Assembly (NCBI GenBank): GCA_026874595.1
Contig: CM049309.1
Span: 93,890,723-93,954,722, forward strand
Length of the DNA: 64,000 bases
Reading direction: 5' to 3'
From: Sipunculus nudus
Lineage: Eukaryota; Annelida; Sipuncula; Golfingiida; Sipunculidae
Under the pieces are notes generated by a model. That model was not told where the DNA came from. It did not search any database and saw only the letters and a list, made by a program, of their open reading frames with translations. Below, piece by piece: positions 2,958 through 51,109 of the stretch (position 1 is the stretch's first letter; each line of letters begins with the position of its first letter). The position numbers were made by a program, and so were the translations under genes.

Positions 2958-3519
2958 AAATGCTTAGTTCTCACCAGCAGTTCTGCACTTCTGATTTTAT
3001 TTATTAAATTGCAATTGCAAGCCGTTTGTCTTGGTGGAACTGTTGAACTCTTCCTGCTTACGCTTTGTCGGCTGTCAGTTGATCTGATCATTTGCTGCTT
3101 AGAGTTACTCTGCTCTTTCTTCACATTCACAATTGCGGGTATCAGGCAGACCTTCCGTGCGTGGCCCCATCAGGTATATGGCTGCTTCCGTAACCAACTT
3201 GTAATATCCATGGAACGATGCTTCTATTATGTAATCTGAACTTGATATGATCAGTGCAGAGAAGAGAACCCTATTTATATTGATATGTAATGGCAAAATT
3301 GTGAAACCAATGCCCCTTTGAAGAGGCATCGCAAGGTTCTGGTATTGATAGTCATTGTTGTTTGAGCTTTGTGTAATAGAGAATTCATACCTATTTTGGT
3401 GCATATTAAAATATTGATATATACCCCATTGCGCAAATGGAACCCCATGAAACTTTGAAAAACTGCCTGAGTGCGAAAATTGAGCCCCGTAAATATAAAG
3501 CCAACAACAGCTGAATCAC
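2958..3519. other. GC-richer unassigned stretch
   Basis: On the minus strand, short overlapping open frames at about 2990-3240 have a less AT-biased composition and could derive from an exon. No splice pair, domain or homology is recognised, so no gene is called. Confidence 0.25.
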
Positions 3520-27406: not shown

Positions 27407-29083
27407 AATCAGTGGCTATACGGTGCCTGAACCCTCTTCTGTTTGAACTGTATAATCAGTGGCTATACGGTGCCTGAACTCTTCTGTTTGAACTGTATAA
27501 TCAGTGGCTATACGGTGCCTGAACCCTCTTCTGTTTGAACTGTATAATCAGTGGCTATACGGTGCCTGAACCCTCTTCTGTTTGAACTGTATAATCAGTG
27601 GCTATACGGTGCCTGAACCCTCTTCTGTTTGAACTGTATAATCAGTGGCTATACGGTGCCTGAACCCTCTTCTGTTTGAACTGTATAATCAGTGGCTATA
27701 CGGTGCCTGAACCCTCTTCTGTTTGAACTGTATAATCAGTGGCTATACGGTGCCTGAACCCTCTTCTGTTTGAACTGTATAATCAGTGGCTATACGGTGC
27801 CTGAACCCTCTTCTGTTTGAACTGTATAATCAGTGGCTATACGTTGCCTGAACCCTCTTCTGTTTGAACTGTATAATCAGTGGCTATACGGTGCCTGAAC
27901 CCTCTTCTGTTTGAACTGTATAATCAGTGGCTATACGGTGCCTGAACCCTCTTCTGTTTGAACTGTATAATCAGTGGCTATACGGTGCCTGAACCCTCTT
28001 CTGTTTGAACTGTATAATCAGTGGCTATACGGTGCCTGAACCCTCTTCTGTTTGAACTGTATAATCAGTGGCTATACGGTGCCTGAACTCTTCTGTTTGA
28101 ACTGTATAATCAGTGGCTATACGGTGCCTGAACCCTCTTCTGTTTGAACTGTATAATCAGTGGCTATACGGTGCCTGAACCCTCTTCTGTTTGAACTGTA
28201 TAATCAGTGGCTATACGGTGCCTGAACCCTCTTCTGGTTGAACTGTATAATCAGGGGCTACACGGTGCATGAACCCTCTTCTGATTGAACTGTATAATCA
28301 GTGGCTATACGGTGCCTGAACCCTCTTCTGTTTGAACTGTATAATCAGTGGCTATACGGTGCCTGAACCCTCTTCTGTTTGAACTGTATAATCAGTGGCT
28401 ATACGTTGCCTGAACCCTCTTCTGTTTGAACTGTATAATCAGTGGCTATACGGTGCCTGAACCCTCTTCTGTTTGAACTGTATAATCAGTGGCTATACGT
28501 GCCTGAACCCTCTTCTGTTTGAACTGTATAATCAGTGGCTATACGGTGCCTGAACCCTCTTCTGTTTGAACTGTATAATCAGTGGCTATACGGTGCCTGA
28601 ACCCTCTTCTGTTTGAACTGTATAATCAGTGGCTATACGGTGCCTGAACCCTCTTCTGTTTGAACTGTATAATCAGTGGCTATACGGTGCCTGAACTCTT
28701 CTGTTTGAACTGTATAATCAGTGGCTATACGGTGCCTGAACCCTCTTCTGTTTGAACTGTATAATCAGTGGCTATACGGTGCCTGAACCCTCTTCTGTTT
28801 GAACTGTATAATCAGTGGCTATATGGTGCCTGAACCCTCTTCTGGTTGAACTGTATAATCAGTGGCTATACGGTGCCTGAACCCTCTTCTGTTTGAACTG
28901 TATAATCAGTTGCTATACGGTGCCTGAACCCTCTTTTGTTTGAACTGTATAATCAGTGGCTATACGGTGCCTGAACCCTCTTCTGTTTGAACTGTATAAT
29001 CAGTGGCTATACGGTGCCTGAACCCTCTTCTGTTTGAACTGTATAATCAGTGGCTATACGGTGCCTTAACCCTCTTCAGTTTG
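27407..29083 (+). repeat. 47 bp satellite, about 36 near-identical copies
   Basis: The unit is 47 bp with core segments AATCAGTGGCTATACGGTGC, CTGAACCCTCTTCTG and TTTGAACTGTAT. Most copies are identical. A 45 bp variant (TGAACTCTTCTG) occurs at 27475, 28084 and 28692, and a CTGGTTG variant at 28234 and 28842, revealing a higher-order period of 608-609 bp (13 monomers). Copies near both edges and around 28235-28285 carry more changes. Because 47 is not a multiple of three, no frame stays open. There are no spacers, so it is not a CRISPR array. Confidence 0.97.
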
Positions 29084-29529: not shown

Positions 29530-30446
29530 GTGGTGGGAGTGAAGAAAATGTTCCTGTTGGATAGGTTGGCCACTGTTCTCTATGTCATAGGGATGCTTTG
29601 CCCAGGTTTAGGTTTGCTGGGGGCTCCTGCTAGTGCCCCGGTGAATTGTCCCTCTCACATTTTCTCACCAAAGAAGGCCATGGCAAAGCTTAAGTCATTC
29701 AGACTCCTTTTATTTCTTTCTGTGAGGCCCTATTTACCATCGCTAAATAGCAGCAATGCGAAAAAAGGAGCAAAGTGCGCAAGTCTCTCTCTGCTAGTAC
29801 ACAGCCTCTCCATCAGCTAGCCCTATGCAGTGCCTCCACGCGGCGACACATGGAAACTGAGCACCCTTGGACTCAGGCTAAACTTCAGGGGACTCGGAGA
29901 AGGTTTACCAACGCGTGGATATGCCCTGGTGTCCATGAACCAAACCACCAGCTATGGGTTAAATAGCTTCACTGCCTTGAGGATCTCTCGGGAGAGAGAA
30001 AGGCTAAAGGAGTAAAACCTGACAGAAAATCTGGAGCCGGAGTCCCAAAGGCAGTTCGAGGCTTTATTCAGCAACGTTCTGGCAACTCCTCCGACTGCAC
30101 TGGAACCATGCTTATTTGTATCTGCCTTTCAGGAATATTTCAGTGGACGTGAAAGGGGGGGGGGGGGCTAGCAGGGTAAGCCTATCCCCCATACTCACCT
30201 ACCTAGGCTTTTTGCGCAATGTAGAGGACACTCTAGCTTCGCTTCACAACGTCGACACAACATGAGAACAGCAGTTTACTGCTTCCGACGGTGGGAGAGG
30301 CCATCGCGTGTCATTGGGCAACCCCCAACCAGTAAGGTGCTGCCTGTTAGCTTCACTGGGTGTGTGAGGTTTAGGGTGAAAACCGACAAGCGCATCCACA
30401 ACTGTGCACCCAGCAATGAAAAGAGGTAAACACATACTCCTGCCCT
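29530..30446 (+). other. Probable 5' region of the LINE relic
   Basis: GC-richer than its surroundings, ending at the start of the endonuclease relic. Short frames at 29530-29820 and 29830-30015 have no recognised motif. A G-run lies at about 30156-30168. I infer this is the element's leader or a degraded first open frame; the sequence itself does not prove it. Confidence 0.4.
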
Positions 30447-30480
30447 AAATCTGGGCACATGGAGTCAGGACCAGGATATC

Positions 30481-30513
<33 letters not shown>

Positions 30514-31308
30514 AACTTGCAAGAAATCAACGACCCTCGCAAGACTGCCGTCATTGATACGGGGCTAAGCAGACTGCAGATGGACATTGTCGCCTTGCAA
30601 GAGACAAGACTCCCAGGAACAGGAAGAATGAAAGAAAAAGACTTCTCCTTTTTTTATGGCAGGGGAAACCTCCAGATGAAACCAGAGAGCATTGAATGGG
30701 ATTCACTGTTCGAAACGGCCTGCTCGGATGCATCACCGCACCTACAGTGGGATCTGAGAGAATCCTGTCCTTTCAACTTCACTCCTCAGTTGGACAAGTC
30801 CACTAATTAGTGCCCACGCACCAACATTGACATCCTCGGCAGAAGCTAAGGACCTCAACGCTGTCATCAAACATCCCAGCAAACGAGGCAATCTTCATCC
30901 TTGGCGATTTTAACGCCAGATTAGATGCTTAACTCAGCTCCTGGCCATTGTGTTAGGGGTAGTTCGGAACTGGTAAGAAGGATGAAAATGGCCTTCACGA
31001 TACGTGCATCAGCAACACATTCTTCAGCACCAAGCCTCAACACAGAGTCTCACGTAGACATCCCCGATCGAAACACTGGCACCAACTAAATCTGATTCTT
31101 ATATGGCGTTCCAGCTTACCCAGCATCATGGTCACACGCAGCTACCAGAGTGCTGACTGCGACACGGACCACTTCTAGTGTGCAGCAAGGTGAAACTGCG
31201 CCTGAAAAAGCTGCATCACTCGAGAAAGGAAGGCAGACCCCGCATTGGCACCAACTGCATACGCAGCAAGCAGAAAGGGGAGAAGGAAGCAAAAGCACTC
31301 GAAGAATC
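30447..31308 (+). pseudogene. LINE endonuclease (EEP/AP-type) domain relic
   Basis: Translation in shifting frames gives the non-LTR retrotransposon endonuclease motifs in order: LGTW near 30450; LQMDIVALQETRLPGTG at 30574-30621 (catalytic Glu in QETR); HAPT near 30815; ILGDFNAR ending at 30920 (Asp/Asn); CISNTFFSTKPQHRVS near 31008-31050; DCDTDHF at 31154-31174 (terminal His motif); and the linker KEAKALEES ending at about 31309. The family is often misannotated as craniofacial development protein 2 (from memory). It nicks target DNA for target-primed reverse transcription. A run of about 29 T (30483-30511) interrupts the start, and there are several frameshifts and stops, so it is dead. It ends abruptly where the 112 bp satellite begins. 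Confidence 0.85.
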
Positions 31309-31315
31309 CCCAGTC

Positions 31316-34300
31316 AAGACGTGAGCTAACCTCGAGATCACTGTGATATCATTAGAGAGTCACGGGTGTGAGTTCATAACTATGAACCAACTGTGAACTC
31401 ATTGTTAGGTCACAGCAGTGAGTTCATGTCTGTTACACAACATTGAGTTCACAGTGATATCACAGAGTGACGTCAAAAATGTGACACCACGGTGAATTCA
31501 CAACCGTGAGCTCACAGTGATATCATGGCATGAGTTCATGTTTGTTACACAACAGTGAGTTCACAGTGATATCACATGATGACGTCAAAAATATGACATC
31601 ACGGTGAATTCACAACCGTGAGCTCACAGTGATATCATGGCATGAGTTCATTTTTGTTACACAACAGTGAGTTCACAGTGATATCACAGGATGACGTCAA
31701 AAATGTGACACCACGGTGAATTCACAACCGTGAGCTCACAGTGATATCATGGCATGAGTTCATGTCTGTTACACAACAGCGAGTTCAAAGTTATATCACA
31801 GGATGACATCAAAAATGTGACACCACGGTGAATTCACAACCATTTGCTCACAGTGATATCATGGGATGAGTTCATGTCTGTTACACAACAGTGAGTTCAC
31901 AATGATATCTCAGGATGACGTTATAAATGTAACACCACAGTGAATTCATAACCATGAGTTCACAATGATGGCATTGCTTGAGTTCATTTCTGTTACACAA
32001 CAGTGAGTTCACAGTGAAATCACAGGATGACGTCAAAAATGTGAAACCACGGTGAATTCACAACCGTGAGCTCACAGTGATATCATGGCATGAGTTCATG
32101 TCTGTTACCCAACAGCGAGTTCAAAGTTATATCACAGGATGACATCAAAAATGTGACACCACGGTGAATTCACAACCGTTTGCTCACAGTGATATCATGG
32201 GATGAGTTCATGTCTGTTACCCAACAGTGAGTTCACAATGATATCTCAGGATGACGTTATAAATGTAACACCACAGTGAATTCATAACCATGAGTTCATA
32301 ATGATGGCATTGCTTGAGTTAATTTCTGTTACACAACATTGAGTTCACAGTGATATCCCAGGATGAGGATAAAAAATGTGACACCACTGTGAATTCACAA
32401 CAGTGAACTCAAAATGATATAATAGCATGTGAGCCCGCGTCTCAAAATGAGACGCCGCGGTGAATTCACAACCGTGAGCTCACAGTGATAGCATAGCAGT
32501 GTGCTCATGTCTGTTACACAACAGTGAGTTCACAGTGAAATCACAGGATGACGTCAAAAATGTGAAACCACGGTGAATTCACAACCGTTTGCTCACAGTG
32601 ATATCATGGCATGAGTTCATGTCTGTTACCCAACAGTGAGTTCACAATGATATCTCAGGATGACGTTATAAATGTAACACCACAGTGAATTCATAACCAT
32701 GAGTTCATAATGATGGCATTGCTTGAGTTAATTTCTGTTACACAACATTGAGTTCACAGTGATATCCCAGGATGAGGATAAAAAATGTGACACCACTGTG
32801 AATTCACAACAGTGAACTCAAAATGATATAATAGCATGTGAGCTCGCGTCTCAAAATGAGACGCCGCGGTGAATTCACAACCGTGAGCTCACAGTGATAG
32901 CATAGCAGTGTGCTCATGTCTGTTACACAACAGTGAGTTCACAGTGAAATCACAGGATGACGTCAAAAATGTGAAACCACGGTGAATTCACAACCGTTTG
33001 CTCACAGTGATATCATGGGATGAGTTCATGTCTGTTACCCAACAGTGAGTTCACAATGATATCTCAGGATGACGTTATAAATGTAACACCACAGTGAATT
33101 CATAACCATGAGTTCACAATGATGGCATTGCTTGAGTTCATTTCTGTTACACAACATTGGGTTCACAGTGATATCCCAGGATAAGGTAAAAAAATGTGAC
33201 ACCACTGTGAATTCACAACAGTGAGCTCAAAATGATATAATAGCATGTGAGCTCACGTTTCAAAATCAGACTCCGCGGTTAATTCACAACCGTGAGCTCA
33301 CAGTGATAGCATAGCATGAGTTCATGTCTGTACACAACAGTGAGTTCACAGTAATATCATAGGATGACGTCAAAATGAGACTCCGCGGTGAATTCACAAC
33401 CGTGAGCACACAGTGAAAGCATGACATGAGGTCATGTCTCTTACACAACAGTGAGTTCACAGTGATATCAAAGGATGACGTCAAATTTTGACACCGCGGA
33501 GAATTCACAGTGATATCAGAGAGATATCTCAGGATGACTTCAAAATGTGACAGCACGGTGAATTTACGGCTGTGAAATCTCAGTGATATCATGGCATGAG
33601 TTCATGTTTGTTACACAACAGTGAGTTCACAGTGATATCACAGGATGACGTCAAAAATGTGACACCACTGTGAATTCACAACCGAGTTCACAGTGAAATC
33701 ATGGCATGAGTTCATGTCTCTTACACAACAGTCAGTTCACAGTGATATCAAAGGATGACGTCAAATTTTGACACCGCGGTGAATTCACAACCATGAGCTC
33801 ACAGTGATAGCATAGAAATGAGCTCATGTATGATATACAACAATCAGTTCACAATGATATCATAGGGAAACGTAAAAAATGTGACACCAAGGTGAATTCA
33901 TAACCGTGAGCTCACAGTAATATCATGGCATGAGTTCATGTATGTTACACAATAGTGAGTCCATAATGATATCTCAGGATGATATACAAATATGACACCG
34001 CGGAGAAGTCACAACCGTGAGCGCACAGTGACGGTATAGCAGTGAGCTCATGTATGTTACACAACGATGAGGTCACAGTGATGTCGTGGCATGAGTTCAT
34101 GTATGTTACACAACAGTGAGATTACAGTGATATCTCAGGATGACGTTAAAAATGTGACACCGTGATGAAAACACAACCGTGAGTTCACAGTGATGGCATT
34201 GCTTGAGTTGATGTTCGTTACAAAAGAGTGTGTTCACAGTAATAGCAGAGAATGACGTCATAATGTGACACCTCAGAGAATTCACAACCGAGAGTTCTGT

Positions 34301-34928
34301 GTGATATCAAGGCATGAGTTCCTTTCTGTTACACAAAAGTGAGTTCACAGTGTTATCACAGGATGACGTCAAAAATGTGACATCGTGGTAAAATCACAAC
34401 CGTGAGCTCACAGCAATATCATGACATGAGTTCATGTCTGTAACACAACAGTGAGTTCCCAATGATATCACAGGATGACATAAAAATGTGATACCACAAT
34501 GAATTCACAATTGTGAGCTCACAGTGAAAGCATGACATGAGGTCATGTGTATTTCACAACAGCTGGTTCAGAGTGATATCTCAGGAGATGTTAAAATGTG
34601 ACAGCACGGTTTATTTACAGCAACAGTGAGTTCACAATGATATCAAAGGATGACGTCAAAATCTGACACCACATCGAATTCACAACTGTGAGCTCACAGT
34701 GATAGCATGGCATGAGGTCATGTCTGTTACACAACAGTTAGTTCGGAGTGATATCTCAGGATGACGTCAAAATGTGACACTGCGGTTAATTCACGGCCGT
34801 AGACTAATAGTGATAGTACTGTATATAGCACTGAGCTCAAGCATGTTACACAACAGTGAGTTCACGGTTATATCACTGGATGAAATGGCACCGCAGTGAA
34901 TTCACACTGTGAGCTCACAGTGATAGCA
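31316..34928 (+). repeat. 112 bp satellite made of TGA-NN-TCA palindromes
   Basis: Monomer period is 112 bp (ACACAACAG at 31547, 31659 and 31771), about 32 monomers. Within it a 409 bp higher-order unit is visible (GTGAGCYCGCG at 32429 and 32838, its relative at 33247). Each monomer strings together eight-base palindromes: TGAATTCA, TGAGCTCA, TGATATCA, TGACGTCA, and the near-palindrome TGAGTTCA, usually as GTGA-NN-TCAC, spaced about 10-20 bp apart. More than a dozen exact TGACGTCA (CRE-type) sites are present. The right third (33400-34928) is more diverged. No coding frame. Confidence 0.95.
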
Positions 34929-36779
34929 TGTTACACTCCAAACGTGAAATTGCCCACATCATGAAATGGGCAGTTATTTTACCCATTTCGTGAACTGGGC
35001 AACCACTTTGCCGAATGAAATGGGCAAATTCACTAAATGCTGCTTGCCCAGTTCATGAAATGAGCAAGAAAACTGTTGCCCATTTCATGAAATGCGCACC
35101 TTTTAAACCTTTAAATCTCTAATGGATTCTGATTACCCATTCTAGCTAATATTAGATAAGGCATATATGTAAAAAATCCCTGTTTTGTGTCAGATGAAAA
35201 CAAAACATTAGAATAATTCTCTACACTTTATTTTTATTATAAACACGTATTATATCATACAAATCAGCTTGACCGTATAAGTAAATATAATAATATTTAG
35301 CTCCAATGACAATGATACATTTCACTATATTTCAGTATATATGTTTTGATATTTTTAGTAGTATTCGTGGGGTTCACAATCTAATGTTAATCATCATATG
35401 AAACATTTAAATATTTCAGGTTCTTCAATGGCTGTTTGATGATCAAAGTAAATTGTTAACGTAGCACAAGTGAAAATATGGTTTCCTTTCAGGGTTTTCA
35501 ATATTTGATGTATTAAAATACTTGAATGGGTTTCAGCAGGAATGTTTAAGGTTTTTAATTTGAAACTTTTAAGATCTATATATACTTAAATATTATACTT
35601 TACCAGTTTATACTATAATATTGTTTATTTTCTCACATCTCAGAGAAAACATTTTGAAACACTTATTTAACGGCAGGTTTAAATAATTATTTCATCTTAA
35701 TAATGTTTAAATGATTGCTATATAAAATAATTAGTTCATGCACTTTAATTGAGTTTGATCTGTTGCTTTATGGAAAACATTAAGTCTGATTTCTAGTACA
35801 GGTATTCATAATCATGTAAATGAGATGCTGTTTTCAGTAGGGTCTTAAATATTTTCAGATTATGAGGGCTATAAAAATCAAAATCAAATATAGCTCAGTT
35901 ACATTTTTAATTTGATATATCTACAAGTTGAAGAAATATATATTCTCTCAATATGTAATATTTATCTAAGCTCATCATGTAATATATGTTCAAACAGCTT
36001 TTAGGTCTGAAATTCACAAATGTGCATGTACTCACTTTTCTGGAATTTAAATAATATATTAATATATGCTTTGAATGTCACCAAGATACCAATTGGCTAA
36101 TCATTTGAAAATAACTGGGCAAGCAAAGTATACTTCTGACTCAGATGTCACTATATAGACCAACAGTTAGTAACAATCCTATGATTCACAAAGACCATTT
36201 TTAATTTAGCAGTTGAAACAAACAACCTACAAAGCATGAACTCAGTACCAACTCAGTGTGGTCAGTTAATAAGTACATACAAGTACTTTGAAGGTTTCAT
36301 TAGTTAAGTGATTATCAGGCCATAGAGCTATGAGATTGATGAAACTTACCAATATCAGTTACTCATATTTCATGTTTCTAAAATAATTTAATGTAATTGG
36401 TAATAAATAAATAATGTAAAATATAGCTTAGTAATAATTATGTACATTAATATATTAATAATTGAAAACTAGATTTATATCAATATATACATATAACTAT
36501 ATACCTATAAAATGTTAGCTGCAAATATGTCTTTTTTCACTTTATCAATTACGATTAACTCAATCAAAATAGGGAAAGGTGTTCCATGCACATTATACAT
36601 TCAATTATAGTATTCCTTAATACTTACAGAACTGAGAAATATATTGCCGATTGTTAAGTTGCTCATTTCATGAAATGGCCAAGCAGAATTTAGTGATTTT
36701 GCCCATTTCACGTAATGGGCAAAATAACTGCCCCTTTCATGCACGGCCCATTTAATGTGCAATATCACATCTGGGGCGT

Positions 36780-36783
<4 letters not shown>
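34929..36783. mobile_element. Non-autonomous DNA transposon, 1855 bp, long TIRs
   Basis: The left end TGTTACACTCCAAACGTGAA and the complement of the right end, TGTTACGCCCCAGATGTGAT, match, and the similarity continues for about 140 bases on each side (GGGCAGTTATTTT, CCCATTTCGTGAA versus CCCATTACGTGAA, TCACTAAATGCTGCTT versus TCACTAAATTCTGCTT, CATGAAATGAGCAA). The terminal zones contain repeated palindromes of the type GCCCATTTCATGAAATGGGC, probable transposase-binding sites. The 1.5 kb interior is AT-rich with no open frame, so the element depends on a transposase elsewhere. It sits at the right edge of the 112 bp satellite. Its superfamily is not recognised; no target duplication longer than 1-2 bp is evident. 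Confidence 0.85.

Positions 36784-36846
<63 letters not shown>
36784..36846. repeat. (AT)n microsatellite
   Basis: About 63 bases of uninterrupted AT repeat abutting the transposon's right end. Confidence 0.95.
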
Positions 36847-36849
<3 letters not shown>

Positions 36850-38799
36850 TATTCGTCAATCTAATTAATGTTCATATGACATTGAATCGATGTCAAGTTT
36901 TAGATGTCAAATTGACGCCAAAATGGCATCAATATTTTTTAGGTATAAGATTGCATGCATGCTTTTTAGGGGAATCATTTTTATTTGGCCTTTAATATTT
37001 TTTAATGATACAAGGGCATGAAGTGTGTTTCAAATGATATGCAATACATATAATGTCAGAAATCATTGTGAAGGTCAAATACTTGTGTATTGCTGTTATT
37101 AAATTGCTTAAATTAAAGACGTACTATATCAACATTTTCATGAGGTGACGGCACTATTATACCCATGCAGCAATAAAATACATTAAAAAATTTAGAAACT
37201 TTGTTTTCCTGGCAGAAGTTTATGTAAATTCAGGGAACAAAAAAAAATGGTAATACTGCATTTTATTGTACTTTTATTAATTCAGACCCATATGAGAAGG
37301 GGGAAACCAACCGAGCCGGCTTAGTTCCAATTTTAATAAGAAATAATTGGGTATAAACCATTGAGAGTTTTGGCGGGTTGGTTTACGCATGACTATATAA
37401 AAACTGCATGGGCATAAGATATGGGAACAACAAATGAGGCTGAGAACAAACTTTGGGTAGCTAACATCGGAAATGCATGATGGAAACGTAAAAAAAAACA
37501 GGATACAATTTCTAAAAGGCACAGACATGGAGACAGACCGAGGTCATGTTTGCATACAGGTTATAATAAATGCATTTTTAAGTAGTCTCTTGAAATTCGT
37601 AATTTGAGTTTCAATAAAACCTTAAAACACAAAAAGTAAAAAGTGTAAACAGATATTATTATTTTAAAATATCATCATTTTTATTATTATTTTATTTTAG
37701 ACAATCATACATTACATTATAATCATGTCCGTAGTTAGTTACATAAAAACATAAAAAATATATGCTTAAAAGATTATAAAAATAATAGTAAAAAAACTAA
37801 TGCAGATTAAAAAAAATGCATGCAATGTTTGTTTTAATATGTGTGATCATCACAGTGATAATGTCCATGCATATAATCATGCAAATTATCTGCATGGTTG
37901 TAAGAAAGTAATAAAATAAAAAATTTCTGCAATATGAAAGTAGATATATTTGTAAGAGTATAACAACGGGCCTTGAAATAAATTGCAGCTAGAGGCAGCA
38001 TGCAGTTACCGCTATAAACATCAAAACTCAAATGATGTAACCCTTTCAGAATTATGCCCTAAACAGTTTTTAATATAAAATGGCTTTAATGGGAAAATGT
38101 TTGAATCATAAAAGTTACATTCTATATACAACCAGCAAAATTGAATATAAATTTTCTTATATATGGTAATGAATATATATTGTCTTTAAAGGTAGAAATT
38201 AAAATTTAATCAAATAGAATATTTCTATATGTTGCTTTTAAAATGTTTTAAGGTTATTATGATGAAATGTTCCTTCTTATATATGAAATTAATTCATCCA
38301 TATTATACCTTTCATATCATTAAGCCCCCCCCCCCCCCCCAACCTATTCACACATATAGTGAAAAATTTATATCATAGCAAACATAGTAAACAGTACTAT
38401 TCAACATTTTATATTTAATTTATATTACGATTGTCAATGTGGATGTTCTTAACCCTGCACATCACCTTTGGATATGCCTGTAATTTTATTGCTCTACATG
38501 AATTTTACAGTCATAGAAGCAGCTGTTAATATTTGTTTATGGTAATACAATTGTCACTAAATCATAATTCCCTTTCAGTGAAAGTACAATTGCGCTAAAA
38601 ATGACTATACCCAGACCCTTAATTGCTTGTTTAAATGAGACCACCGGTCCTGCAATGGACGTGTTCTCAAACAACAAAGAAATTGCTGAGTGTTAAAAAA
38701 AATAGTGTATTCAAGACAGAATGATATACGTAAAAGGGGGGGGGGGATTACTTTAGCTGCATGTTTAACTGATCAGCAATGACCTAACAACCCGTTGCC

Positions 38800-38803
<4 letters not shown>
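36847..38803. other. AT-rich gap, no gene
   Basis: Nearly 2 kb of AT-rich sequence. A C-run lies at 38325-38340 and a G-run at about 38739-38748. An 83-codon minus open frame (37277-37528) has no motif and is not called. Confidence 0.5.
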
Positions 38804-38862
<59 letters not shown>

Positions 38863-38995
38863 TTATTAGTAGTAGTAGTATGACCGTACATTGTGCTTAT
38901 TTGTCTGATGAATATTAAACCTGCCATAAATATATTGTTAATATTTATTAACATTTCAAAATCTGATACATACAAGGAGAGTCAATATTTAATTG

Positions 38996-39051
<56 letters not shown>
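38804..39051. repeat. Two (AT)n microsatellites
   Basis: AT repeats at about 38804-38858 and 38999-39051, separated by about 140 bases of unique sequence. Confidence 0.95.
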
Positions 39052-39054
<3 letters not shown>

Positions 39055-39727
39055 CCTGTATAATATATTAAGCTGAAAGGGGAATAAAGATATGTACGTT
39101 ATATAATGTTATATACATGCATCAACAAATGCACATACATTCTTATCTGATGTATATATAAACTGCTATCAATCAAGAATCTTGTATAGACTGCTATCAT
39201 TTCCAAACTTGCAATTTAACCAGGAACCATTAATTGGTGGACTGTACATGATAGCAAGCTCATTCTGTGAGCACTGCGGTCCTCTCACATCAACTGTCAT
39301 ATGTCACTTGTCAAATGATCCGCTTAGGCGCACTCATGTACCAGTAACCCCCCTGCCCCCTGGCACTGGGGTCGTCTTTTTTTCTGAGTCCTTGTGATGC
39401 CAACATTCTGGCGGGAAACTAAGCATTGCAGCCGAAACCACCGAGACACCTGTTCAAGCATTGTGAGTATATCTTTGTTCTTCATTCCTTCCTGCTTTAA
39501 TACCTACAAAGCTATATGGTAAAAAAATTGGTACATAATTTTAACAAGACTAATTGTGCGGGTTGCATAAAAATCAGCCGTTTCCTTGATAAAAGTAAAC
39601 GGGGAGGTTTCCTGGCCAGCTAGCCAGTCAGATTCAATAGTATGTTGACCTACTGTATATACAAAAAAGATGATATGAAATGTAGTTATAAGGTTAATTT
39701 AATAAATCCATATATGTTTATATTTGA

Positions 39728-39766
<39 letters not shown>

Positions 39767-40492
39767 GTGTGTGTAAGTGTTTTGTAATAACCGGTATTTG
39801 TGTATATATGTATTCAAATATGTGTGTGTCTGTGTGTGAGATTATTTACTAAGTTTTCTATACAAGTAGTTGATCATAATAGTGTGACATATCAGTGTGA
39901 CTTGATCCTGAGGAGCTGCATGTCAGGGGGCATTACGCGAACTCCACAAGCAAGGAAGCCAAAGCCATAATTGTCTGACCTAGACTGAACCTGCTGCATT
40001 CCTTAGATTAACATGCCCTATACACAGACCATATTACCCCACCTCCTCCCTCTCTCTTTCTTCCTCACTTCATTTATAAACTTGAGCCATTACAGTGCTT
40101 AGGCTGTCATCTAATGCCCTTATTCACTCAAGCCTTACTATATCCTGACAAATAGCATGTTGCCCTCCCCTCTTATTTCGTCTTCATTATCTACTTTATA
40201 ATGACATTAATGACGAACACAAACATAGCATTTTAATCACATTCATATAGGCCTATTTCTAAATAACATTGAAGTTGAGTAAAAAAAAAACAAAAAATGG
40301 CAAAATTGAATATTAAAATAAAATGAATAAATAAAGTATTAGGTAAAACTAATTTTGATGTACTGAACGTACTGCATGTATTACATTAAGGTGCATTCAC
40401 TTGTGAACGACAAATTTTAAACGATAGGGTCCTTATTTAAAAATCAAATTTAACATGTATCAATCCTTTCCTTAATTTATATTTCAGTTTGA

Positions 40493-40493
<1 letters not shown>
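39052..40493. other. Gap with GC-richer island and TA repeat
   Basis: Positions 39200-39470 are GC-richer. A frame starting at an ATG near 39397 runs through PTFWRETKHCSRNHRDTCSS to a donor-like GTGAGTAT at about 39466, but there is no partner and no homology. A TA repeat occurs at about 39728-39766 and TG-rich sequence after it. No gene is called. Confidence 0.35.
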
Positions 40494-40534
<41 letters not shown>

Positions 40535-40545
40535 TATACACACAA

Positions 40546-40623
<78 letters not shown>
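40494..40623. repeat. Compound microsatellite (ATT)n-(AC)n-(AT)n
   Basis: TTA repeats (40494-40527), AC repeats (about 40540-40571) and AT repeats (40572-40622) follow each other. Open frames across this region on both strands are artefacts of the repeat. Confidence 0.95.
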
Positions 40624-40628
<5 letters not shown>

Positions 40629-41224
40629 CACTCCTTTATACAGACAGCCACTGGGACTAAAAAATGTAATACAAAAAGGGAAAAAGGGAGAGGCCTTATA
40701 ATACAGCAGTGAGCATGCAGGGTTAGGAATCAAATGGGGCCGGGAAATCTAGCCTTGATATAGGATGTTGTTGCATTTAAGTGTGGCTGTACGCGGGAGT
40801 TGTATTGTATATATAGATACTTTTATGAATATATTTGTAAAACAATCTTAAGATACCATTTGTAAAAATAAGAGTAAGCAGTTTTAAGTGAAAAAAAATC
40901 GGACCAATATAAAAAGAAAAATTTGGGGAAATGTGTTTAAAAACTGTTTCAATAATTTTATGTAAATTACTGTTAGTGATTTAAAGGGGTATGAATCAAT
41001 TAATAAAATATAAATGATAAAAAAATTAATATTTAACAAATCATAATTTTCACTGTGCATTTTACAAAAATAACAAAAAATACTTAAGGATGTGATTCAT
41101 TGCTACTTAGCTCTCATTTAAGTGGTCAGCTAGATCCAGGGAAGTCACTAAAAAGTCGCATTGGAACCTGAAATTAGGTCACTCCGAGCTATGGGGCTGG
41201 TAAATACGCCCCCGCCCGCCCGAA
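40624..41224. other. AT-rich gap, no gene
   Basis: Nothing recognised. Confidence 0.45.
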
Positions 41225-42059
41225 TAATCGAAAATTTGATTCAAAACCTTGATAACTAATACATGAATTGCCCTGAATCTTGCCTTGAAGATGACCATGA
41301 CAAGGTTTGTCAGTTCCCGAAAACTGGTGGCGCCACTTTTTTTCTCATTTTTACGATTTTTTTACTGTTTTTGAGACCGTTAAATGACAGCAATTATGAC
41401 TTTTTCTCAACTGTGGTTTCATCTAGTGTCCCAAAACCTGGTGTGTTTATTGATTATGACTGGTTTCTTGAGTTCCTGAAGACCGGTGGCGCCACCTGTA
41501 TTTTTTTCTTTTTTTTTTATGATTTTTATTTTGAGACTACCACATTATATTGAAACTATCAGATTTGCAAATGTGATTTTATCTAGTGTCATGAAACCAT
41601 GTGTTATTTGGGACCCAATAGAACAAGTGGATGCCCTATAGTAATCACCTTGTCCATCCGTCCGTCTGTCCATTTGTTCGTTTTTCTGTATGTCCGTTTA
41701 AATTTGTTTCGTGATGATAACTCAAGTTTTGACATGTCAATTTCAAACTTAGTAATATATAGCCCACCTCTATAGCAAGAAAAACAGAGGACCCACCTAT
41801 TTTTAAAGATTTTGGGTGCATTTTAAGCAAAACATTTCACCCCAAACCTTCCATCTAGCAAATATAGGTGACGTGCAAATAGAAAATCCGTTTGATTGAT
41901 TTTGGGGTCATGAGATCAAAGGACTGAAATATTGGTTTCAAACTTGACTATTATATGGCCCATCACTAAAGTAAGAACCCTTTTGATTTAGGGGTCATGA
42001 GGCCAAAAGCCAAGGTCATAGAATCCGTGCCGTGACCCACAGGTTCTTTGTTTTACATT
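41225..42059. repeat. Dispersed repeats carrying GGTGGCGCCAC
   Basis: Two related modules of about 160 bp, each with AAAACTGGTGGCGCCAC-like or GACCGGTGGCGCCACC and a TTATGACT stretch, lie at 41263-41580, with palindromes at 41326-41337 (one mismatch) and 41485-41496 (perfect). From 41640 a CCGTCCGTCTGTCC-type stretch starts another dispersed repeat with GATGATAACTCAAG. Non-coding. Confidence 0.6.
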
Positions 42060-43055
42060 CTTGTAACTCATCTGCATGAACTATAGTCGTGGTCCATTGT
42101 CCGTCGTTCGTCCGTCCCTCCGTAGATCTGGCACGTTTAGACCTAGGAATCCAAAATTCGGCATAATGTTAGATGTCCCCAGGATCTCCTACCAAGCCGA
42201 AAACTGGGTCTTTGCGACTTCGTTCCTTTGAGAAATTAAGGAAAAAATGCCTAATATCAAAACCACTCATCTGTTTTCCCTCATATTTAACATGAATATT
42301 CCTCTATATAGTTCCTGTGTGCATGCAAGAAATTAAGTCTATTAAGTATAATTTTTTTAAGTTATGGGCCCAAACATAATAGACTTTATAAAAAATCAGG
42401 AAAAATATTTACTCACTTAACATGAAAAATTTTGAAACTAGAGTCTATTTCCCAAGTATATTACCATGTTTAATTAAGATTTAATTGTTTACCAAAAATT
42501 AGATCTGAATTTTGTATTTTTTAAAGTTATCAGCATAAAAATAAAATGAGTGACTTAAATTTTGCCCAATTTTGACCATGGCACTTTTTTTCCTGTTAGT
42601 ACCATTGATTTAATTTTCACAGCATGTAAACATAAATATTTAATTTGTTTAAATCTGAAATTTGAAAAAAGCTTGAAAATTAGTCTTGTTACTTATTTTG
42701 TGCTTGAGGCTCTATTGTAGTCATTTGCTTTGATAACAGATTAAAGATGCAGGGTCCCACTCCAGGTCACTGGAATTCACCTATGCAAGGGTTTCTGATT
42801 TGTTACAGTCACTAGGGGAGATCCCCTGCTGTGACAGGTGTACTGTTATTTTCATATCACCACCCCAATCCCCCCCCCCTCCGCAAACCCAACCCACCAA
42901 GTGTTATGCAGTAATTGTTATTATTTTCACTGTATCTCCTAATTTGTAATGCTGTTTCCACTCCAATATACAAAAACTTTCCTTAAAAAGATGTAATCCA
43001 GAAGATGCCATGTTGTGTTTATGTAGCATTTTTAAAGAAATCAATTTTCTTTTAA
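42060..43055 (-). repeat. Dispersed repeat family A, long copy 5 (inverted)
   Basis: The reverse complement matches 6104-6925 and, for its start (42060-42290), 2690-2957 and 15385-15815. Landmarks include the TCGTGGTCCATTGTCCGTCG stretch, CAAGCCGAAAACTGGGTC, GATCCCCTGCTGTGACAGGT and a C-run (about 42872-42880) opposite the G-run of copy 2. It is the most complete A copy in the window. Non-coding. Confidence 0.75.
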
Positions 43056-43186
43056 ATGATTATAACAAATATAATTTAACCCACCAGTATGCTTAAATTT
43101 ATAAAATATTAAGCACATTATGGATAAATAAAGACACAATTTAAAATTGTGAAATATAAATCAAGTATTTTTTTTTATATATTTAT
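43056..43186. other. AT-rich gap
   Basis: Nothing recognised. Confidence 0.4.
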
Positions 43187-44080
43187 TTTATCCCGAGACA
43201 AAGTCGGGGGATACTATGTTTTCATACCGGTCCCGCCGCCGCCACCGCCGCCGCCGCCCCATATAAATCTTGTTGGCGTGATAACTCAAAAAATATTCCA
43301 CGGATCTTTACCAAACTTGATATATGTATAGATATGGGTGAGAGGACGACACCTATTTAAAATGAGGTCATGACCTTGACTAGGAGAGTGTCCTTGACCT
43401 TGAATATGTCTAATTTTGGGGAAAATCACACAAATTCTTAAATATCTCAAGAAATCTTGCATGGATTGATCCCAAAATCAAGTTGATCGAAGATCATGGA
43501 TAGGGTTGTCATGTTCCAGAAACTGGTGGCGCCACCTATTATTCTTTACTTATTTTCGTGCCGTTTAATACCCCCAAAATTGCTACTTGACAGTACTGTG
43601 AGCATTATAAGTCAAAAACTAATGGACAGATTTCTTTTATATTATGCATATACATAAATATGGGTTATGGGATGATGTTTATCTAAATTGGGGTCATGAC
43701 CTTTCCTATTAGAGTGGCCTTGACCTAGAATATTTGCCATATATGGTGAAAATTACACAAAATCCAATAATATCTCAATAAGGGATGCATGGATTGGTCC
43801 AAAAATCAAATTGATCGAAGATCTTGAATAGTATTGTCATGTACCGGAAACAGGTGGCGCCACCTGTTATTCTTTAACTTGTTTTCGTGCCGTTTAATAC
43901 CCCATCATTGCCACTTAACAGTACTGTGAGCATTACAAGTCAAAAACTAATGGACAAATTTCTTTCATATTATGCATATACATAGACATGGGTTTGGGAT
44001 GATGTATATTGAAATTGGGGTCATGACCTTTTCTATGAGAGTGACCTTTCCTAATAGTGTGGGCTGATATTAATTTGTTG
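43187..44080 (+). repeat. Family F: tandem modules of about 330 bp
   Basis: It begins with a hairpin-like ATCCCGAGACAAAGTCGGGG (about 43191) and a CCG repeat (43233-43260). Modules then repeat: GGTGGCGCCACC at 43525-43536 and 43853-43864, TTCGTGCCGTTTAATACC after each, AGTCAAAAACTAATGGACA, GGGTCATGACC, and ATTGATCGAAGATC before the next palindrome. Period about 328 bp. Non-coding. Confidence 0.75.
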
Positions 44081-45044
44081 CTGAAGATGGGGGGTCTATT
44101 CTTAAAGAGGGGGGGGGGGGATTGATTGTCTGCGGTGCCAAGAAATATCTAGTTGTTTTGCAGATTTAAAGATTTATTTTTGTGGTAAAAAACAAATAAA
44201 CATTTGTATGCATGATGTGGTGTTATCTGACAAGATTGAGATTTATGAAAATGCAATTGAAAATTATGAATTATTCATTTATATATGTTATATTGGAAAT
44301 GTATAGAAATGTAAACTTATAATAAAAAAAATTTGATGTGATAAAAAAATTAGGATCTAATACAAACATTTGTTCATTATTTTCCTGCCTCAGCAGAATT
44401 GGAGATCAGCCTTTATTTACCCTGTATTTATGTTGTTAATTTGATATATTTCAACTGTATATATTTCATAAAATAAAAAAAAAACATATATATTAAATAA
44501 TATATATTATGCAAAAAAAAAATAGATTCAATTAAACGTCAACAGTTAATCAAAAAGCCAACTAATGATCACGGTAATAGTACAGACCATTTGTTCACAA
44601 ACTGCTCACATGCTTCAGTTTCAACATTAGGAAACACATGGTTAGGTCACATAATATTATTTGCAACAATTTCTTGCTCATCAATACAAACAAATCATAT
44701 AAACCAACCATAGCCCATATTACCTCTTCCTCTTACACTTTATCTCCATTTGATATTATTTTTACCTTCAAGGTCAACTTCAGCTGAGCACAGTGACCCA
44801 TGGGTCCCTTGTTCAATACATGTATTAGATCATTAAAAAACACCCAGTAAATTATACAATAAAGAATGAATTTGAGATGGGCATGTTAAATATTTATTAA
44901 CTGAAATAAAAACATCAAATGTATGAATTCATATCAACCTTTACAATAAAAACAAAGGTTTACATAATATAATGTGACCATTGAAACCTATGTTATGTAT
45001 ACCAAGGCCATGCCAGCACCAGTCATGACAGGTTACGTAACACA
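44081..45044. repeat. G-run and repeat fragments
   Basis: A G-run lies at about 44109-44120. Segment 44330-44450 is the inverted partner of 4588-4760. AGCACAGTGACCCATGGGTC at about 44788 recurs in changed form at about 48775. No gene. Confidence 0.5.
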
Positions 45045-48000
45045 CTCTTAGAAATAAGGTTTCCATGGGCATCCCTGGGGAACTCTGTAGTTTCAGGTGA
45101 AAACTTGGTGGTTCTGTATGCGTTAAAATGGTTCTGTGCAAGCGACAGCATTCTTTTCAATAAAGCAGGTTCCACAGCCACGTGAAGGGTTCCTCAGACG
45201 GAGTCATATGACCTTTTGCGCACGATACACGATACCCGTGTTTTCTTTGCTAAAAGAAGCTGAATGTGGAAAGGGCACAGCACTGAAGAATATTTGAAAA
45301 TCAGATAAGTATAAGACTTTTTAACTAATAGAAACTATTTGATCTTGATTTATAAAATTGTTGGTAGCAGACCCGACTGTAATATTTATTATCAGCAGGT
45401 TTATCTGATGGACTGGCTTTAATTGTCTATCTGTTGTACTGGTCAGTCCTGGCCATCGGTGACCTTAATAGACCCGTAATGACAAGATGGCAGGTTTCCT
45501 GCTGGAGGGATAAATATACGGCCCACTAGTAGTGTGAAGATTCAGGAGGTCGGACATGTTTATTGCTGGACTGTATGTATGACTATGACATTGCTGTGTA
45601 TACATTTTGTTTCAATGAAGACCCAGCTTGGCCTGCTGTACAGCGAATACCTTTAGAATACCCTCCCATGCAGACAACATTCACTTTTGACTTTTCCACC
45701 ATGATTGACCAGCTGCCTTTCTTACAGAAGAACATGATGTGACCAAATTTCATTATGAGCAGAACATAATTTGTTTGAAATGCAATAGAAATATTTATCG
45801 AAGAAAATGTGGTTACAATAAGTGATCAATTTTAAGATATAAACACAGTAAAAATGGGCCTTTATTCAAAGTAGTACTATTTATTTTTACCAAAAATGCT
45901 GTCTCAAATATTATGGGAAATTAATACAGTACCACTAATATAATGGATATTATAAGGACCCCCTCCCCCTTGAGTCCCATGTTATGAACAAATAAATAAT
46001 AAATAAATATTAATGATTACAAAATATATTATATGAATGTATATACAATTTATTTGTTTATTTTTTTTGCCATTTTCACACATTTATTCTTTTTAACTTG
46101 CTAAATGGCTTGGCCGGAGATCTCAAAGAATATGGTGTAATAGTTGTAACATTTAAAAAAGTTGCTTTAAATTTGTACAAAAATAAACCATTAATTTCCC
46201 AACAAAATCATGCTCGGGTTTGCAATTCATTTTGATCTCATATTTATCCATTGTTTGATTAAAATGGTACCATCTTTAACTTTAATTTTTTTTAAATACT
46301 TACAGGCTTCATTAGCTCATCATTCAGCATTTTGCCTTTGAAAATGAAGTCGTGCTTTCTTTTTCTGTCATCATGCAGAGTTTAAATTGAAATAGCCAAC
46401 AAGTTTTTTTTTCATTTTTTTGGGGTATAAGTATGAAATTGAATAAAGGTTTATGCAGACATATATTTATAAATTCCTTTTTGCAATACCTTTCTCCAAA
46501 AATGTTACAAACAATTGTGTAAATGATAGACTCTAATATATATAATGTGGAGCGTTATGACAATGGGTCACAATTTTCTATGTCATTAAGGCATGATATA
46601 CATGTAAATGAACACACTGATTCGTAGGTAACTCCATTGATTTAAAAAAAATGATGTCACAATTCACATCCGCTCGATCTAAATAAATATTGTTCTATAT
46701 TTTCAGGGTGAGTGAAGACTCTTCGCTAAACAAAAGACCAATTATGAAGTATGAAGAGCTGAAGACGAAATGTTGAAATTTGTCATGGTGGTAGTATCAA
46801 AGCAAATGATCTTGCCAAGTGCAAAAACGCATGCAGCATTTAAAATAACAACAAAAGTCCCAGCAACAAGAAAACCAGCTCTGAGCAGATTGTCATAAAC
46901 TATACATTTATTATATATTTTATGATTGTCTATAACACGTTTAATTTGTCCTAGACCGATATAACCAGCTTTATTATCTTCTTGAAGTCATCTGAGCTTT
47001 GTTATAAAATGAAGTTTGGCACATGCATTTTGTGTGTATGAGGCCAGCGCATTAACTGTTAATGTCTAACAGGAAGTGAAGGCAGGCACATACTGAGTGA
47101 ATGCAACCAAATTTCCTCTTGATATCTAAGAGGGAATGAAGGTAGGCACAATTAGATCTAGTGTGAAGCCAGCCACATTTGCTTTTGATATTCAGCTGCG
47201 AGTGAAGGCAGGCACATACTGAGTGAAGATAACCACATTTCACCTGATATCTAATAGGGAGTGATGGCAGGCACATTCACATCGAGTGTGAAGCCAGCCA
47301 CATTTGCTGTTTTTTATTTGATAGTGAATGAAGGTAGTCACACACATTGCGTATGGCTAAACTCATTATAGAATTTGTTAATATATTTATTTCTTTATTT
47401 AGAAATGTGTTTAATAATGTTAATAAGAACACTTCACCTACTTTGAGTTTTCTCATTTGAAACAATTTTTTTATTTTTACATCAATTACACTTTATTCAA
47501 AAGAACTTTGTAAAACTGCTTGGCTTTAAATTTGAGAATGTCCCATTCAATAATTCAAAAGAGAATAATATTACAGTAAAAATGTCAAGTCAAATTCATC
47601 TAATTGCTTTGCTTACAATTGAAAATTCAAATTGTCTCTTTGACAGGATTTTATGCAGTTGGTTGATATTAACCTACGATGTCCTGCCATATGCTGCCAA
47701 ATCAACAATGATGCTGGTGTTATAGAATCGATAGCAGAAGAATCATATCATGCTTTCATCTTTGCTGATAGTATTCATGGAGAAAGTGGATGCAGAACCA
47801 CTTTTAAACGAATATGAAATTGATGGCTGCGTATTTTGCATTATAATCCTCAACTGGCCCAAGAAGGACCAACTAATCAGGATTTTTACAGTTAAATGTG
47901 TAAAGGGAAACAGAAAACCTATTCTATAAAGTTACTGCAGCATAAACTTTGAAGCACACATATAAGAGGATATACCAATTTTAGGATTTCTGTAGTACCC

Positions 48001-48600
48001 TGTGTCACCATTCTAAGAGAGAGATCCTGAATGTTACATCCAATCATTTCCTTGTTCTGAACTGCACATATGTAGTATATGAATTTCTTCGTTTAAAGTA
48101 AAATAAAGTATGTTTACCCCTGTATTTTATTCTTGTTTTTTTTACAGTTACTATCCATTTGATAAAAAAAAGTCCCCCATTAAAGTGTGATAATATCCAA
48201 GAGGAATGACATGCCAGTTGAGGGCATACCTCCGCCAAGGAAAAGGAATCGTGCTAGATCTGTTCCTTTATCTCGCCCTGCAGTGAATTTGAATTGGTCC
48301 TGTCTAGTTTGGTGTAATAGGTTCACCCAGAATATGTATAAACTGTCAAAGTTCCTGTCGGAACAAATAAGTCAAGGAACCCAGTTAATGTCTGTAGAAC
48401 CATTCCTGGTTAATTTAAAAAAGGACCTTAATAATGGTTTTGCAAAGACCCAGCGGAAGTAATTAGCACCATACAAGGTTCCTCAAGGGTTTCAGAAGGA
48501 ACCTTCATTCAGGGTTCCTCAGGGAACCAAGATGGGTTCCAAATATGTGACAAGCCAAAGAACCAAAATGGGTTCCACTTAGAACCCTTTATCAGCTCAG
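45045..48600. mobile_element. Possible element with GGTTCC-rich ends
   Basis: The left end (ACACTCTTAGAAATAAGGTT and further GGTTCC/GGTTCT steps to 45200) and the right end (GGTTCC steps and GAACC steps at 48475-48595) resemble the ends of widespread animal DNA elements that start ACTCTTAGAAATAAAGGTTC (from memory). The right end lacks the complementary CTAAGAGTG terminus, so the boundary is uncertain. No transposase-like frame lies between them. These could be two independent fragments. Confidence 0.3.
47055..47345. repeat. Minisatellite of about 60 bp units
   Basis: Five diverged copies are built from GAGTGAAGGCAGGCACATAC, GAGTGTGAAGCCAGCCACAT and TTGATATCTAA modules, with two unit types alternating. 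Open minus frames through it (repeating CLHS-type residues) come from the repeat. Confidence 0.8.
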
Positions 48601-49574
48601 CTGACTATAAGTCATCTGAGCTATAGCGATCACTCTTTGTTTGATCACTCTTATTCCTTACTCGTCAATATAAACCTAGCATGTCAACCAACCATGGCCT
48701 ATGTTTCCTTTTCCTCCAAGACATCGCTTTTTGTTATTATTATAGATTTTATCTTCCTGGTGAACTTCAGATGAGCACGATAACACATAGGTCCCTTGTT
48801 TTATAGTCCCGCCATCAGTCATCAGTAGAATTTCTTGTTAACAAGACAAATTTATCAAAAACAAATATTGCATTTCACCCCTCAAATGTGAAACAACTAT
48901 AATTTATCCATTTCCTGAACAAGGTTAATTCTGAGGAAATCTATGTTAAGTTACTCCTGTCACATATGAGATACTGAAGATTTTTCCTCAGATTTGACAC
49001 ACAAGATGTTTCCTTCAAGTGTTAGAAGTGTTTGAAAACTGGTGACTTGTGACCTTGATCTTCAAGATCTAATCTACAGAAATCTAGGATGATTGCATGT
49101 AACCCCCTAACTTTGGAGATATTTTCTTTAACTTTTAGGGGAGGCCGATTGGGATTGGAGACATTTATATCTTAAACAAAGCCATACTACTGAATTTATT
49201 CTTTTATCATGTGTAAATAATTTTCACAAAACCATTTTAAGGCTGTTTTGTTTTAGCTTGTCTGAAGACTTTTAACAAAGAAGATCGAATAACACCCAGA
49301 AGAGCCAGAGAGGATGTTTCTAACATCTGTCCTATCAGAAGTGTCCAGACAAAAAGAGGTCTTTTTGGCCAATGCTAATACGGGACTGAGGCGGACAGCA
49401 AATAAGTGAAAGGAGAAGTATTCCGATATCATATATGTCGTGTGTAACATTCAGTGCAACCTGACATACTGTGAAACATTAGAAATAAAATTTATAATTT
49501 TATGTGTCTTTTCCGATTTGGATGTAATGCATATTGGGTGTGTGTGTGAGGGAGAGAGAGACAGACAGACAGAG
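48601..49574. repeat. Family A terminal palindrome and gap
   Basis: The inverted family A terminus (CAGCTCAGCTGACTATAAGT, then CATCTGAGCTATAG) is at about 48593-48626. Then unassigned sequence follows, ending in GT and GA dinucleotide runs (about 49540-49578). No gene. Confidence 0.5.
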
Positions 49575-50897
49575 AGAAAGTGGTGTCATGGTGATATCAC
49601 AAAATGATCACCATGTGACCTCAGCATGTGACATCTCTGTGACATGAAGAGAGTGCGATCAAGGTGAAATGACAGTATCACCATGTGACCTAAGCATGTG
49701 ACATCACTGAGTCACCAGTGTGAGGTTACAAAATTCATGTCACAGTGAGGTCACAGCATGAGGTCTGTGTGAGCTAATCTGTGATTTCGTGGTGACATCA
49801 GCATGTGACATCTCTATGACATCGAGATAAACAGATCATGGTGAAATAACAGTATGATCACCATGTGATCTAAGCGTGTGACATCACTGTGTCACCAGTG
49901 TGAGGTTACAAAATTCATGTCACAGTGAGATCACAGCATGAGGTCTGTGTGAGCTAATCTGTGATGTCGTGGTGACATCAGCATGTGACATCTCTGTGAC
50001 ATCAAGAGAGAGATATCAGGATGAAGTCACAGTATGATCACCATGTGACCTAAGCGTGTGACATCACTGTGTCACCAGTGTGAGGTTACAAAATTTATGT
50101 CACAGTGAGGTCACAGCATGAGGTCTGTGTGAGCTAATCTGTGATGTCTTGGTGACATCAGCATGTGACATCTCTGTGACATCGAGATAGACAGATCATT
50201 GTGAAGTCACAGTATGATCACCATGTGACCTAAGCGTGTGACATCACTGTGTCACCAGTGTGAGGTTACAAAATTCATGTCACAGTGAGGTCACAGCATG
50301 AGGTCTGTGTGAGCTAATCTGTTATGTTGTGGTGACATCAGCATGTGACATCACTGTGACATCGAGATAGACAGATCATGGTGAAGTCACAGTATGATCA
50401 CCATGTGACCTAAGCGTGTGACATCACTGTGTCACCAGTGTGAGGTTACAAAATTCATGTCACAGTGAGGTCACAGCATGAGGTCTGTGTGAGCTAATCT
50501 GTTATGTTGTGGTGACATCAGCATGTGACATCACTGTGAGATCGAGATAGACAGATCATGGTGAAGTCACAGTATGATCACCATATGACCTAAGCATGTG
50601 ACATCACTGTGTTACCAGTGTGAGGTTACAAAATTCATGTCACAGTGAGGTCACAGCATGAGGTCTGTGTGAGCTAATCTGTGATGTCGTGGTGACATCA
50701 GCATGTGACATCTCTGTGACATCAAGAGAGAGATATCAGGATGAAGTCACAGTATGATCACCATGTGACCTAAGCGTGTGACATCACTGTGATACCAGTG
50801 TTAGGTTACAGATTTCATGTCACAGTGAGGTCACACGATGAGGTCATGTGATATAATATGTGATGCCATTGTGAGATCACCGTGATGTCAAATTCCC
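49575..50897 (+). repeat. 180 bp satellite, also TGA-NN-TCA based
   Basis: CACAGTGAGGTCACAGCATG-type starts recur at 49741, 49921, 50101, 50281, 50461 and 50641, exactly 180 bp apart, for about seven copies. Each unit is rich in GTGAGGTCAC, GTGACATCA, GTGAAGTCAC, ATGATCACCATG and GTGACATCACTGTG, the same GTGA-NN-TCAC grammar as the 112 bp satellite but with a different unit. The last copy (from about 50800) degrades. No coding frame. Confidence 0.95.
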
Positions 50898-50904
50898 GAC
50901 TGGG

Positions 50905-50961
50905 TCCCTCTCAGGCCCACCTGGTGCAAGTGCCCACGAAAGATGGGAACACTTCAGAGAC
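50905..50961 (+). pseudogene. Short LINE linker fragment
   Basis: About 19 codons in one frame (SLSGPPGASAHERWEHFRDS) resemble the segment that follows KALEES in the LINE family of the 30447-31308 relic (from memory of the family). After GTCACA the similarity stops. It supports the split-LINE interpretation, but it is short. Confidence 0.45.
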
Positions 50962-51109
50962 TCTGTCACACCACAAGAGATGTGAACGACAAGATTCTGT
51001 TAACTGTCAAACTTACTGGTTGAAACTCATGTATACGTATACTACAAAAGATAAATAAGACACGAGTTAACAAAAACAAATCAATATATTAAAGAAAACA
51101 TATACTTAC
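50962..51109. other. Probable intron start of the minus-strand candidate gene
   Basis: AT-rich. On the minus strand it follows the GTAAGT donor at 51109-51104. A possible acceptor (ATCTTTTGTAG) lies at about 51043-51053 on that strand. Confidence 0.3.

Follow-up and report, generated by a model that had tools for sequence, protein, structure and literature searches.

A 19.6-kb Insert with Palindrome-array Arms in a LINE Relic of Sipunculus nudus: a Probable Giant Non-autonomous DNA Transposon

What separates the two parts of a broken long interspersed nuclear element (LINE) in the genome of Sipunculus nudus? The stretch in question (the window; 64,000 nucleotides, C4:93890723-93954722 of the searched assembly of 1.43 Gb in 153 contigs, C marking a contig) contains a LINE endonuclease relic that is split by an interval of 19.6 kb (31309-50904), for which the initial annotation had proposed a single mobile insertion of foldback type with a satellite at each end. 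The interval is a precise insert, and its exact ends, 7-bp terminal repeat, 2-bp target duplication, and empty LINE sites, together with 42 two-ended copies, copies that moved recently, and a coding signal that was looked for and not found, make it likely that the element is a giant non-autonomous class II (cut-and-paste) transposon. A genome search with the LINE segment upstream of the insert (query 30301-31308) gave 46 DNA matches, the window itself counted, and the relic matches Exo_endo_phos weakly (E 0.0016, under the Pfam cut-off). When this segment was fused to the sequence that starts at 50907, the junction was crossed without a gap by 22 of 29 other LINE loci (the 29 overlap in part, and the 22 correspond to 17 distinct places), whose alignments extended 24-77 bases past it. 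The site reads AATCCCT in most of these copies and a close variant in a few, and none has a second TC, which indicates that the interval was inserted into a pre-existing LINE copy and is flanked by a duplicated TC. The initial annotation had placed the break after the residues KALEES at 31308, with the next LINE segment starting at 50905, and had suggested looking for unoccupied LINE copies; these copies bear out both the break and the mobile insertion. Its view that the LINE continues to 50961 was right as to adjacency, that segment aligning next to KALEES in LINE copies, and a little short as to extent, the alignment going on to about 50983.

Both ends of the insert recur across the genome. 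The left end, CCCAGTCAAGACGTGAG from 31309, is present at 68 places (≤3 mismatches over 32 bases) and the right end, CCGACTGGG up to 50904, at 47 (≤3 mismatches over 34 bases), with no matches to the controls for either. A left end lies within 60 kb and in the proper orientation for 42 of the 47 right ends, so that other copies with the same ends, which the initial annotation had also proposed to seek, do exist; 37 of the 42 span 19.1-28.9 kb, with a median of 22.4 kb, the shortest three being 7.6, 10.8, and 14.6 kb and the longest two 36.8 and 56 kb. It should be noted that these lengths are taken to the nearest left end and that one copy on C17 measures 16.0 kb with the next left end, which was used for reading its flank. 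Some left ends are clustered on one strand with no right end found nearby (C17:52221955, 52227229, and 52234334; C17:53544243 and 53548979; C12:69872263 and 69879720). Flanking sequence varies between copies, and the 2 bp on either side are identical in 37 of the 42 copies in which both flanks were read, the window included, where 3.1 would be expected by chance from the dinucleotide frequencies of the window (P ~5e-37). The duplicated dinucleotides are AT (10 copies), AA (6), GT (5), TA and TT (3 each), CT, CA, TC, and GA (2 each), and AC and TG (1 each). The target duplication is thus 2 bp without a fixed sequence, and the complementary CCCAGTC and GACTGGG boundaries with TC on both outer sides, as first noted in the window, are one instance of it. 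Satellite arms are known to be prone to misassembly, yet a segmental duplication or an assembly artefact in place of transposition is extremely improbable when exact ends occur in varied contexts on many contigs with these target duplications and with empty sites.

The target duplication and the ends also bear on the superfamily. ISL2EU (PHIS) elements insert at A/AT/T (PMC4482050), whereas AT makes up 10 of the 37 duplications here and the flanking A and T are not fixed; the Tc1/mariner duplication is TA (PMC10045372), which is found in only 3 of 37. Helitrons and Helentrons produce no target duplication (PMC7492417), in contrast to the duplication in 37 of 42 copies. The oyster Cg_HINE non-autonomous Helentrons do resemble the present element in that satellite-like arrays are spread by an animal mobile element, but their repeats are central rather than at both ends (PMC7492417).

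The two arms are satellites that differ in monomer length and, as was initially noticed, follow one grammar, each being an array of the TGANNTCA palindrome. Counts of this palindrome are 131 for the left arm and 34 for the right arm, as against 8 for the interior and 19 for the remainder of the window; the maximum in 200 letter shuffles per arm was 6 for the left and 2 for the right. The left-arm monomer of 112 bp has higher-order periods (e.g. 409), and that of the right arm is 180 bp. With one mismatch allowed, palindromes in the left arm are most often spaced by 11, 13, 25, or 14 bp and those in the right arm by 11, 13, or 14 bp, and a comparable peak is absent from the interior and flanks. 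The best local score between the arms was 53 whichever orientation was used, compared with 28 and 23 for the controls, and these equal scores indicate that the arms have palindromic words in common and not inverted sequence, which sets the element apart from foldbacks. The initial annotation had regarded satellites lacking these ends elsewhere in the genome as evidence against such an insertion; they exist, but for the right arm they are few. Among the best 40 of 81 candidates scored in the right-arm search, 37 lie at a listed right end by our own tally, and 3 do not (C11:57327639, C15:34294906, and C8:27712053), the C11 match being without the final bases of the end. In the corresponding left-arm search the best 30 of 118 candidates were scored.

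The strict foldback reading, in which the element would have long inverted arms of the Mutator or P/Galileo type (most foldbacks have been placed in Mutator; PMC4079207), is consequently very improbable: the arms are long and made of tandem subrepeats, as in foldbacks, but they are not inverted copies, and only 7 bp at the termini form an inverted repeat. Tetris, a non-autonomous foldback of Drosophila virilis, is reported to be similar in lacking conserved open reading frames and an identified autonomous partner, in having terminal regions with internal tandem repeats of ~220 bp, alike in kind to the arms here, and in having ends in common with a smaller element, DAIBAM, much as the present element does with the smaller second family described below; it differs in its long inverted-repeat arms, in a duplication of 8-10 bp as opposed to 2 bp, and in that three structurally complete copies were reported (PMC4079207). 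Galileo, of the P superfamily, likewise has long repetitive ends with several transposase-binding sites, which have been suggested to compensate for the disadvantage of being long, but its arms are inverted and its transposase, which has a THAP domain, is known (PMC3688188).

The interior, 14.7 kb in length, is broadly collinear across copies. Long alignments in the 18 other copies scored are 92-98% identical over its left half, and those over its right half 89-98% identical (best 19 of 10012 and best 19 of 19032 candidates scored, respectively). A diverged copy, L077, has the interior in common at 82-90% identity over long alignments. Pairwise distances over 1.0-1.3 kb of the interior in 25 copies have a median of 0.031 and a maximum of 0.091, and the window copy is nearest to a copy on C5, at a distance of 0.013. 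Over ~2,845 bp reaching the right end of the element, identity among the copies on C8, C9, and C12 is 99.8-99.9%, with 3-4 differing positions and one gap; such identity of three copies on separate contigs points to recent movement, and the 2-bp duplication is present in the C8 and C12 copies and absent from that on C9. The 7.6-kb copy on C11 (L119, C11:39655177-39662963) is a deletion derivative that holds a retrotransposon with long open frames, which we take to be Ty3/gypsy-like. The ~7-kb extra segment of one C3 copy (Table 1) contains a 289-bp minisatellite of about nine units (positions 3016-5710 of L121, C3:9435800-9443050).

Table 1. Features of the insert and its LINE host (window positions)
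Feature	Position	Strand	Basis
LINE endonuclease relic, 5' side of insert	30447..31308	+	Genome DNA matches and weak Exo_endo_phos match
Target duplication TC, left copy	31307..31308		Gap or second TC absent from LINE copies
Left terminal inverted repeat CCCAGTC	31309..31315		68 left ends genome-wide
Left arm, 112-bp satellite of TGANNTCA palindromes	31309..34900		Tandem-repeat and motif counts
Interior, broadly collinear across copies, coding signal not found	34901..49559		Alignments and coding scans
~195 bp absent here, present in each of 18 other scored copies	38029..38029		Alignments break at query position 3130
Length-variable region	42070..42352		~0.9 kb extra in C3:12.5 Mb copy, ~7 kb extra in C3:9.4 Mb copy
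Right arm, 180-bp satellite of the same TGANNTCA palindromes	49560..50904		Tandem-repeat and motif counts
Right terminal inverted repeat GACTGGG	50898..50904		47 right ends genome-wide
Target duplication TC, right copy	50905..50906		Flank reading across copies
LINE resumes beyond insert	50907..50983	+	Furthest alignment, to locus L005

The longest stop-to-stop frame lying wholly within the element is 105 amino acids and falls in the left satellite, the maximum in the interior being 97 amino acids. Pfam searches of six-frame read-through translations (stops as X) gave no match at E 0.1 for the window interior and L077, three weak matches, all under cut-offs, for L121, and, for stretches of ~4.9 kb in both L122 and L123, one weak sub-cut-off match, which lies in L122. 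A Pfam search of 10 window frames likewise gave only weak matches, under cut-offs. These scans, which took in the copies and parts named, are of modest sensitivity, in that the adjoining LINE relic, as a positive control, reached only the sub-cut-off E value given above. Comparison of the window with L077 showed codon-position bias (P below 0.01) in none of 41 windows, and 22 of 107 indels are multiples of three. No Rfam family reached its gathering threshold over 31000-51200. The element might instead be a decayed autonomous one, whose interior transposase either can no longer be recognised after mutation or belongs to a type not yet described. In size it is comparable to very large coding elements, among them Tgmt*, a soybean CACTA element of 20.5 kb (PMC2613891), hidden Markov model searches of read-through translations catch only strongly conserved domains, and a 92-amino acid frame at 48184-48462 is open in 8 of the 20 other copies in which it is present at full length or with gaps. 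Against this, stop codons or indels interrupt the same frame in the other 12, including the three near-identical recent copies, none of the three codon positions being free of changes, and the short interior frames and unbiased windows likewise argue that decay of a coding element is unlikely.

The giant element has shorter relatives. One, of 9.75 kb on C5 (L122), has the ends CCCAGTT and AACTGGG, the inverted repeat thus being altered on both sides together, as well as GT flanks on both sides and shorter arms. A broader search, for CCCAGTC with two palindromes after it, gave 274 matches, some overlapping, compared with 24 in the control, and led to a second family whose left end has the same first 22 bases as that of the giant element. 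Its left end was found at 34 places and its right end at 43, with no control matches; 26 of the right ends are paired, and 19 of the 26 pairs measure 5.08-6.42 kb, examples being C3:69653355-69659141 and C5:71919479-71925039. Judged from these sequence features, it is the likely source of the transposase.

An element of CACTA/EnSpm (CMCT) type with altered termini is improbable, though somewhat less so than a decayed autonomous one. CMCT elements mostly have CA..TG termini and duplications of 2-5 bp (PMC12730594), and the 2-bp duplication falls in that range, but the termini here are CCC..GGG. The subterminal motif arrays are CACTA-like: Tgmt* resembles the present element in size and in its asymmetric subterminal repeats able to form palindromes, and differs in encoding a transposase and in its CACTA termini, 3-bp duplication, and repeats extending over 159 and 732 bp only (PMC2613891). 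The genome has seven TNP2 (PF02992) matches, four of them without stops (frames of 549-973 amino acids at C5:65958699, C8:57458013, C2:44916544, and C12:5842402); none of the seven falls inside any of the 26 paired second-family members or at 3 kb or less from one, and a transposase unrecognised by PF02992 would escape this search. Inspection by eye of the best 150 of 701 matches to DDE_Tnp_4, the transposase type expected of ISL2EU, placed none inside the 26 intervals. We therefore leave the superfamily unassigned, since none of those compared fits all terminal features, the comparison being with published descriptions for CMCT, ISL2EU, Tc1/mariner, foldback, and Helitron and with general background for others.

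By analogy with the repeated sites in the long ends of Galileo, the arms of the giant transposon are probably transposase-binding arrays. A transposase made elsewhere would bind the TGANNTCA palindromes as multimers, neighbouring palindromes often being 11 bp apart, or about one helical turn; the bound protein would join the two far-apart ends, cut at CCCAGTC, and insert the element with a 2-bp stagger. The many sites in each arm may offset the length of the element. As a tentative extension, these elements could represent an undescribed superfamily of animal DNA transposons with CCCAGTC ends and 2-bp duplications, in which palindrome-array arms let the transposase move non-coding units of 20-29 kb, and in which the interior might be kept because the element works best when long or because it has an unrecognised non-coding function.

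Several observations weigh against a giant non-autonomous transposon mobilised in this way. Among the 68 left ends, 26 or more are unpaired, some of them in the clusters noted above, and in one of the unpaired cases a right end is present but has diverged beyond the search pattern. The 2-bp match is absent from five of the 42 copies (C4_65.1, C8_28.3, C9_15.6, C14_43.9, and C11_39.6), of which C9_15.6 has one flank within a local repeat and C11_39.6 is the short C11 copy. The interior could contain a transposase that is outside Pfam or is divided into exons too short for the scans, and the 92-amino acid frame does remain open in some copies. The role proposed for the second family is drawn from shared ends and size alone, genome searches with PF02992 and PF13359 did not find a partner transposase, and protein binding to the TGANNTCA palindromes is putative, as read from sequence.

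Just upstream of the LINE relic (window 27407-29083) is a tandem array with a 47-bp unit, present in about 36 copies at 97% matches. Fragments of this LINE are also repeated every ~16-80 kb on one strand at C9:71.48-71.68 Mb (L013, L017-L020, L024, L027-L030), which suggests a duplicated block.

Non-autonomous DNA transposons are usually short, and a recently moved non-coding DNA transposon of the present length is unusual. In a review of giant transposons, as far as the available part extends, the size limit is applied to coding regions, and the non-coding units mentioned are long terminal repeat (LTR) derivatives rarely longer than 10 kb (PMC6431247). These large retrotransposon derivatives (LARDs) are comparable in having a long non-coding interior mobilised in trans, but they are LTR retrotransposons, and it is their inter-LTR length that rarely exceeds 10 kb (PMC6431247). 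The word foldback is absent from the available part of a survey of bivalve transposons (PMC10294476), and among the matches listed from titles and abstract openings of open-licence papers no element of such a kind was found. In S. nudus, about 40 copies of a unit of ~20 kb without detectable coding sequence have moved, some of them recently, and both of its ends are arrays of one palindrome in two monomer frames. The element thus offers a system in which to ask how so long a unit can be transposed and how arrays of transposase-binding sites give rise to satellites.

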